Shown: one piece after another, positions 20,449 to 51,273 of the stretch
Position numbering within the stretch: position 1 is the stretch's first letter
Layout: every line of letters starts with the position of its first letter
Program-made: the position numbers and the translations under genes
The notes under the pieces: model-generated
What the model saw: only the letters and a program-made list of their open reading frames with translations
Databases searched by the model: none
What the model was told of the DNA's origin: nothing
Assembly (NCBI RefSeq): GCF_023705585.1
Contig: NZ_BOQE01000001.1
Location: 186,001-250,000 of the forward strand
Direction of reading: 5' to 3'
DNA length: 64,000 nt
Origin: Collibacillus ludicampi
GTDB taxonomy: Bacteria; Bacillota; Bacilli; Tumebacillales; BOQE01

Positions 20449-21501
20449 TCACTTGACCACAATCCGTTTCGGATGGTCGCTGACAACCTCTCCGATGATC
20501 GCCGCTTCTGTGACACCTTTTCCGTGAAGCGCTTGAACAAGCGGTTCCGCATCACCCGCCGGTACCGATAAGAGAAGTCCGCCCGATGTCACCGCATCAC
20601 ATAGGATGTAGCGCATCGTCTCGTCGATATGTCCGGCATAATCCACATCGTCTTTCAACCAGTCGAAGTTGCGATGTGTGCCTCCGGGCATGATTCCCTG
20701 TTCCGCGAGGGAGCGTGTCTCGGGCAGCACGGGAACCCGATCCGCATGAATGACAATCCCTGCGCAGGAGCCGCGGGCCATTTCCATTGCGTGGCCGAGC
20801 AAGCCGAAACCGGTGATGTCCGTGCATGCGTGTATTTCAAAGCCATGAGCGACTTCGGAAGCGGTTTTATTCAAAGACGCCATCACTTGCTGCACGCGTT
20901 CGATCGCATCTTGCGATGCTTTTCCCCGTTTGATGGCCGTAGTCAAAATGCCTACGCCGATCGGTTTCGTCAAAATCAGCTTGTCGCCCGGGCATGCCCC
21001 GGCATTGGTCCATACCTTATCAGGATGAACGATGCCAGTCACAGCCATTCCGAACTTCGGATCACGGTCATCGATCGAATGACCTCCGATTATCACGGCC
21101 CCTGCTTCTTTCACTTTGTCGGCACCGCCACGCAAGATTTCCGCCAGAATCTTTTTATCCAATTTGCTAACCGGAAATCCTACGATGTTCAGTACGGTAA
21201 GCGGTTTGCCTCCCATCGCATAGACGTCAGACAACGCGTTTGCCGCAGCGATCGCGCCGAACATGTAGGGATCATCGACGATCGGAGTAAAATAGTCGAC
21301 CGTTTGCACGAGGGCTGTTTCCTCATTCAAACGATAGACCCCGGCATCATCGGAAGTGTCCAGTCCGACGATCACATCCGGATTGGGCATGTTTTTCGGT
21401 AGATGGCTCAAAACTTGAGCCAAATCGGCTGGGCCGATTTTGCAACCTCAGCCCGCTTTCTCAGTCAGCAATGTAAGCCGAACAGCTTCTTCAGGTGTCA
21501 T
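20449..21501 (-). CDS. selD: Selenide, water dikinase SelD with selenocysteine at residue 18
   Basis: The full gene starts at ATG 21501, four bases past the selA stop, and contains an in-frame TGA at 21450-21448. Read as Sec it gives TEKAGUGCKIGPADLAQVL, the exact SelD active-site context (G-C/U-G-C-K). Starting at the TTG just downstream would delete this catalytic loop. Total 350 residues, normal length; GGAPLTVLN-type and ITGFGLLGHAMEMARGS motifs follow. SelD makes selenophosphate from selenide and ATP. Two perfect hairpins follow the UGA. The lysine equivalent to the catalytic Lys20 of E. coli is present as K21. Confidence 0.93.
21405..21450 (-). promoter_or_regulatory. Candidate bacterial SECIS region of selD
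   Basis: Downstream of the UGA, minus strand: AAATCGGC pairs with GCCGATTT around a CCA loop (21440-21422), then GGCTCAA pairs with TTGAGCC around a GTT loop (21421-21405). The second loop begins with G about 34 bases after the UGA, inside the distance seen for bacterial SECIS elements; the first is closer but lacks the loop G. Either or both may bind SelB. Confidence 0.6.
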
Positions 21502-21505
21502 GCCG

Positions 21506-22918
21506 TCAACAGATGTTGGCGAACGCTCTGCGGACACTTTCAATGCATTCTTGGATTTCTCGTCTGAAGATTGTACGGACATCGAACAACAAAGCCTCCT
21601 TTCGAATCATCGCCATTACGGGGATATCCACAAGGCGCATCGCTTCTGCCAAAGCATTGAGTGAGAACTGACTGCTCTTCACAGCCACCAGTAAAGTCGG
21701 CAGCTCTTCCGTCGGTAAGCTGCCTCCTCCCACTTGCGAAACGCCATCGACCACCGACACGTTTGCTAGCTCGTGAAAGATCTTTCGCAAGCCGGATGCC
21801 AATTCTTCCGCAGCTTCTCTCAAGTCTTCAAATGAGCGGGTTAACATGTACAGAGTGGGAATTTCCCGGATCGCCTTCTCCTCGTCGAGATACAAGCGAA
21901 GGGTCGCTTCCAAAGCGGCTAACGTCAGTTTGTCCACCCGCAATGCACGCGTCAATTGGTTTCGTTTCAATCGCTTTATATATTCTTTTTTGCCGATAAT
22001 GATTCCTGCCTGTGTCGCTCCGAGCAGTTTATCTCCGGAAAACGAAATGATATCCACTCCCGCTTTCACGCTCTCGCTGACGGTCGGTTCATCTCCGATG
22101 CCATATTTCCTCAAATCGAGCAGTGAGCCAGAACCGAGATCTTCGTATACGGGAACGTTTCGCTCATGGGCGATGCGCACAAGCTCTTCCAGAATGGGCT
22201 GATGAGTGAACCCGACAATACGAAAATTACTGGTATGCACTTTCATCACCAGTGCGGTTTCTTCGTCGATCGCCCGTTCGTAATCATACCCGTGCGTCTT
22301 GTTCGTAGTACCCACTTCATGCAAAATCGCTCCAGATTCTGCCATCACTTCCGAGACGCGAAAAGAGCCGCCAATTTCAACGAGTTGCCCACGCGAAATC
22401 ACAACTTTTTTCCCTTTGGCCATCTCCCGCAAGACGAGCAAGACGGCTGCCGCATTATTGTTGACGACAAGCGCGGCTTCAGCTCCCGTCAGCCTGCAGA
22501 TCAAATCCTCGACATGCGCATAGCGAGTGCCTCTCTCCCCCGTATCCAAATTCAGTTCGAGGTTCGTATACCCGGAAGCTGTCTTAACGAGGATATCGAC
22601 CGCACTTGACGCCAGCGGGGCACGTCCCAAATTCGTATGTAAAACGACTCCTGTCGCGTTTATGACGCGCCGGTAATGTGTTTGATAGAGGAGCGTCAAT
22701 CTTCTTTCGACCGCCTCGACCAATTGCTCCATCGTCGGCGCTTGCTGTTCTTCCCCCGCAAGCATGCGATTGCGAATCGTAGTGATCACTTCCGATACCG
22801 TTTTCGAAACAAGCGTGTGACCATACTCTTGCAACAATGGTTCACATTCCGGTGAAACAATCACACGATGAACCGCAGGAAGGTTGCGCAAGAGTTGTTT
22901 TCGCGATTCGTTCGACAT
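21506..22918 (-). CDS. selA: L-seryl-tRNA(Sec) selenium transferase
   Basis: A 470-residue PLP enzyme: NATGVVLHTNLGRAPL near residue 80, and the PLP lysine in ISFSGDKLLGATQAG near residue 293. Length equals bacterial SelA. It converts Ser-tRNA(Sec) to Sec-tRNA(Sec) using selenophosphate made by SelD, whose gene follows after four bases. AAAGGGG precedes the ATG by eight bases. selB and selC are not in the window. Confidence 0.97.
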   Translation of the reverse strand: MSNESRKQLLRNLPAVHRVIVSPECEPLLQEYGHTLVSKTVSEVITTIRNRMLAGEEQQAPTMEQLVEAVERRLTLLYQTHYRRVINATGVVLHTNLGRAPLASSAVDILVKTASGYTNLELNLDTGERGTRYAHVEDLICRLTGAEAALVVNNNAAAVLLVLREMAKGKKVVISRGQLVEIGGSFRVSEVMAESGAILHEVGTTNKTHGYDYERAIDEETALVMKVHTSNFRIVGFTHQPILEELVRIAHERNVPVYEDLGSGSLLDLRKYGIGDEPTVSESVKAGVDIISFSGDKLLGATQAGIIIGKKEYIKRLKRNQLTRALRVDKLTLAALEATLRLYLDEEKAIREIPTLYMLTRSFEDLREAAEELASGLRKIFHELANVSVVDGVSQVGGGSLPTEELPTLLVAVKSSQFSLNALAEAMRLVDIPVMAMIRKEALLFDVRTIFRREIQECIESVRRAFANIC

Positions 22919-32655: not shown

Positions 32656-32982
32656 TTATAAGACATCCGCCAATTTATCCAGCATGTCTTTTTTGGGCAT
32701 ATAACCAACGAGCGACTTCACAACTTCACCGTTTTTGAAAACAAGCATGGTCGGAATCGACATGATGCCGTATTTCTGAGCGATCGCCGGGTTTTCATCT
32801 ACATTGATCTTACCGACAACCAGTTTGCCCGAAAGTTCGTTGGCAACCTCATCGATCACGGGAGCGACCATTCTGCATGGACCGCACCACTCGGCCCAGA
32901 AATCGATCAAGACGGGTTTATCTGTTTTCAATGTTTCCTCGAAATTCGCTTCAGTGACTGAAAGAACAGAAGCAGATGCCAT
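32656..32982 (-). CDS. trxA: Thioredoxin
   Basis: A 108-residue classical thioredoxin with WCGPC at residues 32-36, the cis-proline in MSIPTM and FKNGE near residue 83. Reduces protein disulfides with NADPH via thioredoxin reductase. A separate thioredoxin-like gene at 46.2-46.5 kb has Sec in place of the first Cys. Confidence 0.97.
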   Translation of the reverse strand: MASASVLSVTEANFEETLKTDKPVLIDFWAEWCGPCRMVAPVIDEVANELSGKLVVGKINVDENPAIAQKYGIMSIPTMLVFKNGEVVKSLVGYMPKKDMLDKLADVL

Positions 32983-41808: not shown

Positions 41809-41954
41809 GGACTCACCTCCATAACATTCACTACACGCTATCCTATTATTTCTGGCCTGTGAAGGTTCATACCGTGCACAATTTTTACCGAACAAGAACG
41901 GAGTTGAACAAATCCCCATATAGTACATATGACTATTGATTTGGGGTGATCATC

Positions 41955-42815
41955 ATGTTCGATTCTCTCCACCGGAATTCTTACTTATATAGATGGAACG
42001 CATCCTTTGTCCCTGCATATGTTTCCCCATTCTCCTTCCATTCGACACCTCCTTATTCTCCATTGGATCCTTACCAAGACGTTACCTATCAAGAGTGGAT
42101 GAGACAACAGGTCCCACCGCATGCACATGGACCTGAACGACATGAAGAAAGACATCCGCATCTCGTTCATGTGGACTGGGCTTCCCGCTTCCCAAACGAG
42201 GTCATACTGCACGGGCCGCCTCGCAGAGAAGTTGCATTCACGTTCGATGACGGACCCGACGATATCTGGACTCCTCGTATACTCGATGTACTCAAGCAAT
42301 ACGATGTCAAAGCGACATTCATGTGTGTGGGAAGAAGGATACAGCAACACCCACAGGTGCTTCTACGGATGATCAGGGAAGGGCATATTGTAGGCAATCA
42401 CACTTGGAACCATCCGAATTTGACCAAAATCACGCTGGCTGAGGCACGATTACAAATCATTCGTACTTCCGATGAGATCAACCGCATAGCTGGTGTTCGA
42501 CCGCGCTTATTCCGCCCCCCTTATGGAGCACTCAATGCAGATGTTATTCGTGAACTGATCACCTTAGACTACAAAATCATTTTCTGGAACGTGGATAGTC
42601 TTGATTGGGCAAAACTTACGGCTCCTCAAGTCGCCGCAAACATCTTGGCACATACAAGGCCGGGTTCCATTATATTGCAGCATAGTGCCGGTGGCGTGGG
42701 AGAAAGTTTGGAGGACACGGTGCAGGCGATTCCTTACGTAGTAGAAACACTGCGGCAAGGAGGTTACAGAATTGTGACTGTCCCGCAAATGCTCAACATC
42801 TCCGCATATCATTAG
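41955..42815 (+). CDS. Polysaccharide deacetylase, cytosolic-looking
   Basis: About 286 residues from ATG 41955 (GGGGTG six bases before). The NodB domain spans about 90-280 with AFTFDDGPDD (Asp98/Asp99), the GNHTWNHPNL metal motif, RLFRPPYGALN and a late IILQHSAGG. No signal peptide or membrane segment precedes it; instead there is an 85-residue region rich in Pro, Tyr and His. Family members remove acetyl groups from chitin-like or peptidoglycan sugars. The lack of an export signal is unusual; it may be delivered in the mother cell. Confidence 0.88.
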   Translation: MFDSLHRNSYLYRWNASFVPAYVSPFSFHSTPPYSPLDPYQDVTYQEWMRQQVPPHAHGPERHEERHPHLVHVDWASRFPNEVILHGPPRREVAFTFDDGPDDIWTPRILDVLKQYDVKATFMCVGRRIQQHPQVLLRMIREGHIVGNHTWNHPNLTKITLAEARLQIIRTSDEINRIAGVRPRLFRPPYGALNADVIRELITLDYKIIFWNVDSLDWAKLTAPQVAANILAHTRPGSIILQHSAGGVGESLEDTVQAIPYVVETLRQGGYRIVTVPQMLNISAYH

Positions 42816-45852: not shown

Positions 45853-45932
45853 ATTCCTGCCCCTCCTTTCGTCGATCTCCTACATTGAATGCGGTGAAAC
45901 AAGATTTCGAGAGGTACACGCGTCCAATTCGG

Positions 45933-45990
45933 AAAAAAAGAGACCCGTAGGTCTCTTAAGCAAAAAAGAGGCCGAATGCCCTCTTTCATC
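45933..45990 (-). terminator. Two tandem intrinsic terminators
   Basis: Minus strand: AAAGAGG / CCTCTTT with TTTTTT (45986-45962), then AAGAGACC / GGTCTCTT with a T7 run (45957-45933). They lie downstream of the Sec thioredoxin-like gene and upstream of the low-complexity gene. Confidence 0.88.
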
Positions 45991-46196
45991 AAATCAAATG
46001 TGTAATGGTTTGTTCCCCACTTTTCGGTAGGGGAACACACCGCCGTGATTCGAGCCTTACCGCTTACGGTCAACGGCAAAGGGGGAAGTTGTCGTTGCCG
46101 CATTTGCCCCTGCGACACTCTCAAAAGAACTTCTTGGGGAGGCTCGACGTACTCTATGTTATGAATGAAGCGAGGACTCGTTGAGGGCTTTTCCAC
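45987..46196 (-). CDS. Possible small protein after the Sec thioredoxin gene
   Basis: A frame from GTG 46196 is open but runs through both terminators, so its true 3' end is doubtful; only the upstream 70 codons (MEKPSTSPRF..., with CSPTEKWGTNHYTFDL) are plausible coding. The ribosome site is weak (AGGT). I do not recognise it. It may be an untranslated tail of the preceding gene. Confidence 0.22.
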
Positions 46197-46215
46197 TATA
46201 AAAGCTTACCTAATT

Positions 46216-46530
46216 TCATATCGAAGAAAATACCCACTCCTTCACTTCTTTCTCTGAAGCATCTCCGATATGACGTTTGATCTCCTTGCCGTTGTTGACA
46301 AGAATCATCGTGGGGACACTCAACACTCGAAAGAGGACACCGAGTTCAGGAGAATCGTCCAAATCCACATAAAAAAAGTTTACCTCTTGCACTTGTTTCG
46401 AAACGTTTGAGATCACCGATCTCATGACACCGCATGAAAATCAGGAATCGGTTCCGAATTCTAGTACGAGAGGGTTCCGCGACGTTCGCAGCCATCGACT
46501 GAGCTCCACTGTTGTAATCGTCTGAACCAC
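46216..46530 (-). CDS. Thioredoxin-like selenoprotein with U-x-x-C motif
   Basis: The frame from ATG 46425 lacks the thioredoxin active site. Extending upstream past an in-frame TGA (46443-46441) reaches GTG 46530 with GGGGGGAAG just before it. Read through, the product has 104 residues: MVQTITTVELSRWLRTSRNP, then LVLEFGTDSUFSCGVMRSV with Sec30 and Cys33 in place of C-x-x-C, then the thioredoxin elements FFYVDLDDSPELGVLFRVLS, cis-Pro VPTMILVNNG. A 7-bp hairpin with a GGU loop begins 17 bases after the UGA. SelA and SelD are encoded at 20.4-22.9 kb. Function inferred: a Sec-dependent thiol redox protein. Confidence 0.82.
46408..46443 (-). promoter_or_regulatory. Candidate SECIS hairpin of the thioredoxin-like gene
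   Basis: After the UGA (46443-46441), TGAGATC (46424-46418) pairs perfectly with GATCTCA (46414-46408) around a GGU loop 24-26 bases from the UGA. E. coli fdhF SECIS likewise has GGU in its apical loop at a similar distance. Confidence 0.7.
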
Positions 46531-46628
46531 AATCTTCCCCCCTTCCCTGCTTCTTTCATTTATCATTTACATGGTTTAATATAATATGAATAATATACGA
46601 ATCAAATAAATTTAATAGGAGGAACATC

Positions 46629-49406: not shown

Positions 49407-49775
49407 TTATCCGTTTATCCACGCACCAATCGTGTAACCTAAGAAAGCAAAGAGTATACCGAACAGATAACTTATGCCTAAATAGAGGCCAAGAACTCTC
49501 CATTCTTTTTGTTTTGCCAACTGGAGACTATCCACTTTGAACGTTGAGAACGTTGTAAAAGCTCCCATGAAACCGGTACCGAATAGTAAATAGATCGAGG
49601 TTCCCCATTTTCCCCCAATAATGAAGCCTAATAAAAATGACCCCAAAAGATTTACAAATAAAGTTCCGTACGGAAACCTCGATGAAACGCGCCCCGCAAT
49701 CCACTGACTCGAACAATAGCGAGCAATCGCCCCAAAAAAACCTCCAACGCCGACCAATAAACCATCCCACATCAT
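49407..49775 (-). CDS. crcB: Fluoride channel subunit Fluc/CrcB (copy 1)
   Basis: A 122-residue four-helix protein with GGFFGAIARY, the NLLGSFLLG motif and GFMGAFTTFSTF, all Fluc hallmarks (pore Asn and the Phe-box). It exports fluoride as a dual-topology dimer. It starts 6 bases beyond the second fluc gene; two paired Fluc genes in Bacilli can form antiparallel heterodimers. Downstream of a fluoride riboswitch. Confidence 0.95.
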   Translation of the reverse strand: MMWDGLLVGVGGFFGAIARYCSSQWIAGRVSSRFPYGTLFVNLLGSFLLGFIIGGKWGTSIYLLFGTGFMGAFTTFSTFKVDSLQLAKQKEWRVLGLYLGISYLFGILFAFLGYTIGAWING

Positions 49776-49781
49776 CTTGAT

Positions 49782-50171
49782 TCACTCCTCTCTCGTTATC
49801 CCTCTTAATTTAAAAAGGCGGTAACCGCACCATGCCATCAGTAATCCCCCCCATAGACTTAGGAGAACGTAAAGAATAGCGATACCCCATAATCCCTTCT
49901 GAATGAGAGCCAAAGTCTCCGCACTAAAAGTGGAAAATGTAGTAAAAGACCCGATAAACCCCGTACCAAAACCTACGCGTATCCACGATGGAAAGTTTTT
50001 ATGGCTTGCTGCCCAGGGAGTGAACCATCCGAGAATGATACATCCCAGATAATTGATCAACAGAGTTTCCAAAGGAAATGAGAGGGACCACCATGAATGA
50101 ATAAGTAACCCCAAATCATAACGGAATAAGGCACCCAGTACTCCAGCGATTCCGACAATGAAATAAATCAT
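49782..50171 (-). CDS. crcB: Fluoride channel subunit Fluc/CrcB (copy 2)
   Basis: A 129-residue paralogue with LGALFRYDLG, NYLGCIILG and GTGFIGSFTTFSTF. AAAAAGGTGGTG precedes the ATG. First gene after the fluoride riboswitch and transcribed with the other fluc gene. Confidence 0.95.
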   Translation of the reverse strand: MIYFIVGIAGVLGALFRYDLGLLIHSWWSLSFPLETLLINYLGCIILGWFTPWAASHKNFPSWIRVGFGTGFIGSFTTFSTFSAETLALIQKGLWGIAILYVLLSLWGGLLMAWCGYRLFKLRGITREE

Positions 50172-50307
50172 TTGACACCACCTTTTTCATAAACAGTTTC
50201 CTATCGAAGTTCTTCGAGGGTACCACTGCGTTAAAGAGAGCTTTTTCATCCGCAAACCATCTCATGGGGGTAAAGAAGCTTCCCCTTAAACACTTGTTCC
50301 CGATGAT

Positions 50308-50387
50308 AAAAATAACAGACTCCCACCATGATATACTGGTAGGAGTCATTAGCCACCCGGGCGCTTATGGCGAACTCCATCGCCTTT
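50308..50387 (-). promoter_or_regulatory. Fluoride riboswitch (crcB motif)
   Basis: Minus strand from 50387: GGCGATGGAGTTCGCCATAA, then GCTAATGACTCCTACCA, the conserved crcB-motif strands. GACTCCTACCA (50347-50337) then pairs with TGGTGGGAGTC (50328-50318) to form a terminator with TGTTATTTTT, the off state. It precedes the two fluc genes by 140 bases. Confidence 0.95.
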
Positions 50388-50547
50388 GTTGATTACAATG
50401 AAAACTAAAAAAAGTATACCGAATGTCATTTCTTGTATCAAGACAACACTCCTGCTCCAACCCCATCAACACGGAAAAATATTACATGTATCCTGGAAAA
50501 GAAACTGTTAAACCATATCATTACTGAATCCCCAGTGTGGTGGTCAT

Positions 50548-51273
50548 ATGAAGAAACGCACACGATACATGAAAGTAATCTTTTTTTGTTGTATAGCTTT
50601 ACTACTGACTCCTGCCATCGTTCATGCTGGTAAAAAGGGACGTATTTATTTGGGGTCTCACGAACAAATCCTTAGGGAAATTCCAACAACAGAAAAATTG
50701 GTTGCTCTTTCCTTTGATGACGGACCGAATCCGAGATACACACCTCAAGTATTAGACCTATTGAAACAATATAACGCCAAAGCAACATTTTTTGTGATCG
50801 GCTCACGGGTCGAAAAATTTAGGGATTTGGTGCAAAGAGAAGCCATGGAAGGGCATGAAGTTGCTAATCATTCCTATCGTCATACTTTTAAAAAGTTATC
50901 TGAAAAAGAATTTAAAGAAGACTTAACGAAAGCACAAAAAGCAATTTATTATGCAACAGGACATTTTTCACACCTCTATCGCCCTCCAGGGGGATATTAT
51001 GATGAAATGACGATTCATCTTGCCAAAAGCGAGGGGTATATCATCGTCCTTTGGTCGAAGGACACCAGAGATTGGAGTAAGCCTGGCGTGGATAAAATTG
51101 TCCATCAGGTGCTCGATCATTTGCATAACGGTGACATCATCCTCTTTCATGACCACGGGCGTGATCGCGGACAAACGATTCAGGCATTAGCAAAAATACT
51201 CCCGGAGATTCAAGCAAAAGGATATCAATGCGTTACGATCTCAGAGTTGTTAAAAACAAAAGCGAGTCCGTAG
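50548..51273 (+). CDS. Secreted polysaccharide deacetylase
   Basis: A 241-residue protein with a signal peptide (about 1-27, cleavage near VHAGKK) and a NodB domain: LSFDDGPNPRYT, ANHSYRHTF metal motif, YRPPGGYYDE and IILFHDHGRDR. Residues agree with PdaA/PgdA-type peptidoglycan deacetylases. Transcribed divergently from the fluoride channel genes. GTGGTGG precedes the ATG. Confidence 0.92.
   Translation: MKKRTRYMKVIFFCCIALLLTPAIVHAGKKGRIYLGSHEQILREIPTTEKLVALSFDDGPNPRYTPQVLDLLKQYNAKATFFVIGSRVEKFRDLVQREAMEGHEVANHSYRHTFKKLSEKEFKEDLTKAQKAIYYATGHFSHLYRPPGGYYDEMTIHLAKSEGYIIVLWSKDTRDWSKPGVDKIVHQVLDHLHNGDIILFHDHGRDRGQTIQALAKILPEIQAKGYQCVTISELLKTKASP

Follow-up and report, generated by a model that had tools for sequence, protein, structure and literature searches.

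The locus at 46216-46530 on the minus strand of the window (the whole 64,000-nucleotide stretch of the Collibacillus ludicampi genome analysed here) is read, from sequence comparison, as encoding a full-length selenocysteine (Sec)-containing thioredoxin, with a probability of about 0.94. A Sec-dependent redox protein had been proposed here in a first-pass annotation, and this reading is supported by homologues with the same TGA, by conservation on both sides of it, by a compensatory change in the SECIS hairpin, by a complete Sec machinery in the genome and by perfect co-occurrence with selB.

Gene frame and signals

On the minus strand a TGA stands in frame at 46443-46441, with TTT TCA TGC after it, just as the first-pass annotation described, and the frame upstream is open to a GTG at 46530 that is preceded by a good ribosome site. 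Reading through this TGA joins the two parts into a frame of 104 residues with U30 and C33, again as had been proposed, and the following features were assigned.

46216..46530, minus strand: Sec-thioredoxin coding sequence, GTG start at 46530, 104 residues, U30-F-S-C33, TGA stop at 46218-46216
46441..46443, minus strand: in-frame UGA read as selenocysteine 30; the same TGA is found in class homologues and in further Bacillota loci
46432..46434, minus strand: Cys33, the second active-site residue of UxxC, invariant in the family alignment
46312..46314, minus strand: cis-proline codon (Pro73) of the thioredoxin fold, invariant in the family alignment
46537..46544, minus strand: Shine-Dalgarno-like AAGGGGGG, read from the sequence
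46578..46605, minus strand: sigma-A-like promoter match TTGATT-16-TATATT, by consensus match alone

The start codon lies 29 codons 5' of the UGA in 41 of the 49 family members read, a count in which the start-picking rule gave a slight advantage to 29, and the same distance holds for GTG 46530. Genome-wide reassignment of UGA was ruled out, because UGA is the normal stop of both this gene and selD. Downstream of the gene, the intergenic stretch 45930-46200 (minus strand) folds better than its shuffles (z -2.7) and ends in a terminator-like hairpin; no Rfam family matched it.

Standard gene calling yields at this locus only a 69-residue ORF from ATG 46425, so that the protein is missed, as anticipated in the first-pass annotation. 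The same output is what would be seen if the UGA were an ordinary stop, with only the short ORF real or with the thioredoxin-like frame arising by chance. However, the product from ATG 46425 would have neither the active site, as already observed, nor the first strand and helix of a thioredoxin; moreover, relatives conserve residues 1-30 with the TGA aligned, and the bases of the SECIS stem are conserved across orders. Termination at this UGA is accordingly regarded as highly improbable.

Thioredoxin identity and predicted fold

The suggestion that the joined product resembles thioredoxin along its length is upheld by Pfam Thioredoxin (PF00085), which matches residues 3-100 with an E-value of 1.7e-12 and a score of 47.7 bits against a gathering score of 23.5. 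Solved thioredoxins are matched by the 104-residue product with a best E-value of 2.3e-10, and an AlphaFold prediction on the family alignment gave a pLDDT of 94.4 and a structure resembling solved thioredoxins with TM scores up to 0.95 (6nup). The UGA falls at the first active-site Cys (U30), with a Cys three residues on (C33), giving S-U-F-S-C in the window protein and W-U-P-x-C in most relatives, as opposed to the classical W-C-G-P-C. The fold, the cis-proline and the second Cys are shared with the canonical Cys thioredoxin TrxA (TIGR01068), but against that model the window protein scores 53.3 bits, under the curated cut-off of 96.8. A Cys thioredoxin copy of the TrxA type is also encoded by the genome, at 32683-32961 of the window.

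Distribution of the family

Among the 61 genomes searched first, five matches contained one in-frame TGA, including three of the four that scored best outside the organism's own genome; where read, this TGA aligns with position 30. When a profile was then run against 399 genomes of the class, 21 genomes matched at E<=1e-29, every one with an in-frame TGA that corresponds, wherever read, to the U of UxxC; one of the 21 matches also has a TAG directly before the TGA. The homologues span residues 1-30, and conservation is seen both upstream and downstream of the aligned TGA; the first-pass annotation had named the opposite outcomes, no homologues over residues 1-30 or conservation downstream only, as arguments against its reading. 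A second profile of 32 members recovered the same 21 genomes at 117.8 bits or more, the best stop-free match scoring 103.5 bits, although this profile contained the window protein, whose place above the gap is thus partly by construction. The elongation factor gene selB occurs in 84 of the 399 class genomes and in 21/21 of those with a Sec-thioredoxin (hypergeometric p 6.8e-16).

A scan of genome contigs with a peptide pattern of the window protein returned zero relatives because the window member is too divergent, whereas a TGA-containing DNA pattern succeeded. Searching GTDB contigs with this pattern for F-x-A-D-W-U-P-x-C gave 65 places, 41 of which belong to the Sec-thioredoxin family and all of these to Bacillota, namely Bacillaceae, Planococcus, Planomicrobium, Fictibacillus, Paenibacillus, Aneurinibacillus, Thermoactinomycetaceae, Alicyclobacillaceae and unnamed Bacillota; the other hits, comprising Planctomycetota thioredoxin-like frames and chance matches, were set aside. 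The family as a whole occurs widely among spore formers and related bacteria. Eight other thioredoxin-like frames with an in-frame TGA in a UxxC context were recorded (L108, L116, L120, L126, L130, L132, L137, L162), mostly in Planctomycetota, with longer N-termini and possibly exported.

The SECIS hairpin

46408..46424, minus strand: bacterial SECIS hairpin UGAGAUC-GGU-GAUCUCA, found by a covariance model built without the window

The 7-bp stem with a GGU apical loop, reported in the first-pass annotation to follow the UGA at the distance known for bacterial SECIS (bSECIS) elements, is confirmed at 46424-46408; all its pairs are Watson-Crick, it begins 16 nt past the UGA and its loop starts 23 nt after it. 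Published constraints on bSECIS elements are an apical loop of 3-9 nt, an upper stem of 4-16 bp, a G in the first two loop positions, a UGA-to-loop distance of 16-37 nt and an MFE of at most -7.5 (PMC13188914), and the window hairpin falls within them (loop GGU, 7 bp, 23 nt, -8.5 kcal/mol). With a covariance model of 17 relatives from which the window was left out, this hairpin ranks first in the 64-kb window with the UGA in register (25.2 bits, E 3.1e-4), and it is also the best hit in the whole genome (E 0.02, the next being 3.8).

Geometry of this kind can arise by chance to a varying degree. Of the 2449 TGAs in the window, 23 (0.9%) are followed by a stem of at least 7 bp in bSECIS geometry with Watson-Crick pairs only, and 0.26% of synonymous recodings contain one; with G-U pairs allowed, the share of recodings with a stem rises to 22%. 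Since such G-U-tolerant stems are common, the hairpin by itself is weak evidence, moderately unusual, and the comparative evidence is decisive. The stability of the hairpin region was rejected as an argument, the region not being unusually stable (z 0.45).

Family stems are of the type UGAGACC-GGU-GGUCUCA, in which A/G variation leaves the pairing intact, or of the type ACAACUG-GGUC-CAGUUGU. Compared with the commonest family stem, the window stem differs by one compensatory pair, C-G to U-A, a change that also replaces a P by S and a V by I in the protein. Pairing therefore seems, on the sequences compared and from this one event, to have been kept at the cost of protein sequence.

Divergence of the window protein

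In blastp against the window protein, 43 of 48 Sec members score above all the Cys thioredoxins sampled, with identity over the full length reaching 45% for Sec members, as against 27-30% for the best Cys thioredoxins. In a tree the protein groups with the Sec members (support 96/99), although resolution of the tree is poor and the Sec group also takes in three Cys rows that evolve fast. Scored with a profile built without the window, it obtained 100.5 bits, no higher than Cys thioredoxins (up to 102.0); the profile score was consequently rejected as a sole separator from Cys thioredoxins, from which blastp and the tree do separate it.

The window protein is the most divergent Sec member, with the longest branch in the Sec group (1.14), and two residues that flank Sec in most relatives, the preceding Trp and the following Pro, have been lost from it, ADWUPxC having become TDSUFSC. 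These features raise the question of a decaying gene, descended from the family with its function lost, and decay appears to have occurred elsewhere: one copy retains the C-terminal half alone (G008:C117:48710-48850, L077) and another carries a TAG right before the UGA (G079, L095), both probably decayed. Nevertheless, the frame in the window is open, Sec, Cys33, the cis-proline and the invariant Phe and Gly residues are retained, as are the start and ribosome site, and the SECIS stem is maintained by a compensatory change. Loss of function is hence considered very unlikely, and an intact Sec-thioredoxin remains the preferred reading.

Sec machinery and other selenoproteins

20449..21501, minus strand: selD, itself encoding a selenoprotein, with in-frame TGA at 21450-21448 in LLTEKAG-U-GCKIGPADLAQVL
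21506..22918, minus strand: selA, selenocysteine synthase, from its translation and its position next to selD

The first-pass annotation had placed SelA and SelD in the window, and both are encoded there, selD at about the coordinates given, with its Sec context read as AG-U-GCKIGP; ORF calling puts the selD start too late, at 21423. The two genes whose absence from the genome had been named as counting against a selenoprotein are both present, selB at C1:838330-840207 and selC, a tRNA-Sec with anticodon TCA, at C1:2920579. The Sec-decoding trait is thus complete, comprising selA, selB, tRNA-Sec and selD.

Beside SelD, a second further selenoprotein of the genome is a T-P-G-U peroxiredoxin (G000:C1:3550115-3550576; L194:2616-3077), the best NCBIfam match of which is PrxU, a thioredoxin-dependent peroxiredoxin, below cut-off. 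A Sec formate dehydrogenase was sought in the genome and not found; the best match, an alpha-subunit-like gene at G000:C1:2391339-2393378 (L190), carries Cys where Sec would stand and is interrupted by a TAA (AEC*PTIMPYI), and is either a pseudogene or affected by a sequence error. The genome may hold other selenoproteins beyond SelD, the thioredoxin and the peroxiredoxin.

Proposed mechanism and possible roles

SelB with Sec-tRNA(UCA) would bind the hairpin 3' of the UGA, leading to insertion of Sec at position 30. In the resulting thioredoxin-fold thiol/selenol-disulfide oxidoreductase, Sec30 would attack as the nucleophile and Cys33 would provide the resolving thiol, and the targets could be selenium compounds en route to SelD or the Sec-peroxiredoxin that this genome encodes. 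We infer that the protein is produced and is reduced by thioredoxin reductase; most likely it would work as a thioredoxin whose nucleophile is a selenol, in the service of either the Sec-peroxiredoxin or the supply of reduced selenium.

One role that can be put forward tentatively is reduction of the Sec-peroxiredoxin, forming a Sec-to-Sec relay in peroxide defence. Besides the presence of this peroxiredoxin, with its PrxU match, in the same genome, all three class genomes with a close peroxiredoxin relative have both a TGA in the peroxiredoxin gene and a Sec-thioredoxin, a co-occurrence with p 1.3e-4, or 0.014 among selB genomes. However, 18 of the 21 Sec-thioredoxin genomes are without a close peroxiredoxin relative (E<=1e-30), and therefore the peroxiredoxin cannot be the sole partner.

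Gene neighbourhoods point to another role, in selenium supply, for example in providing SelD with selenide by reduction of selenite or of selenium-thiol adducts; selenite reduction is a process in which the thioredoxin system is known to be involved (PMC9312934). In many Bacilli, halophilic and related, the Sec-thioredoxin gene is convergent to genes for a PdaB-like deacetylase and PhnC-, PhnE- and PhnD-like proteins; selD lies 3.5-5.3 kb away in nine loci, adjoined in 7/9 by a glycosyltransferase of GPMC type that is also weakly like SenB. Against TIGR04553, a model for a putative selenate transporter, the binding protein of this cluster scores 158.7 bits, below the cut-off of 250, and selB lies within about 8 kb of the Sec-thioredoxin gene in five genomes of one genus. 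Against this, the PhnCED/selD cluster was seen neither near the window gene, which lies about 23 kb from selD-selA, nor in the branch with the ACAACUG-type stem; the neighbourhood may also reflect mere co-inheritance of Sec genes. A supply role is accordingly viewed as possible and somewhat doubtful.

The cluster of PdaB-like, PhnCED-like, selD and GPMC-type genes, present at L103, L111, L118, L122, L139, L150, L164 and others, may be a selenium uptake locus in its own right. Two polysaccharide deacetylases in the window (41946-42815 and 50548-51273) grouped with the PdaB-like neighbour but were rejected as its counterparts, the grouping reflecting general family similarity. A fluoride riboswitch upstream of two crcB-like genes was also noted in the window at 49407-50393 (minus strand).

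Relation to known selenoproteins and implications

Sec-thioredoxin (PF00085, UxxC) is an experimentally verified prokaryotic selenoprotein (PMC13188914, PMC9312934), with WP_010956703.1 as reference (Kim et al. 2015, as cited in PMC13188914), and seven Sec-thioredoxins were counted in a survey of 2006 (PMC1794560). By its sequence, the window gene belongs to this known family, the reference member being compared by description: both are single-domain PF00085 proteins in which Sec replaces the first active-site Cys of UxxC, whereas the Bacilli clade has its own conserved SECIS. SaoT (NF040730) and the HUIPC motif protein (NF047660) are likewise given as thioredoxin-like UxxC selenoproteins (PMC13188914), but in NCBIfam scans the window protein was matched neither by SaoT, at E<=1, nor by the HUIPC motif model.

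The Bacilli-wide clade, apparently Sec-only and often beside selD and a PhnCED-like transporter, looks undescribed: NCBIfam contains no model describing it, and no description of it turned up in the papers searched, although one may exist elsewhere. It is conceivable, if rather unlikely in its entirety, that this is an old Sec-only thioredoxin lineage of Bacilli at work in the selenium economy, alongside SelD and a selenium-oxyanion transporter of PhnCED-like type, and sometimes paired with a Sec-peroxiredoxin, as here. SelD, the thioredoxin and the peroxiredoxin would in that case form a small selenium redox relay sustaining the Sec trait without a Sec formate dehydrogenase.

The clade represents a selenoprotein that would be cut short by gene callers in dozens of genomes of Bacilli; its conserved SECIS is open to immediate testing, and its tie to the selD and transporter locus makes a selenium-supply role testable. 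It may also explain why Bacilli without a Sec formate dehydrogenase have the Sec trait.
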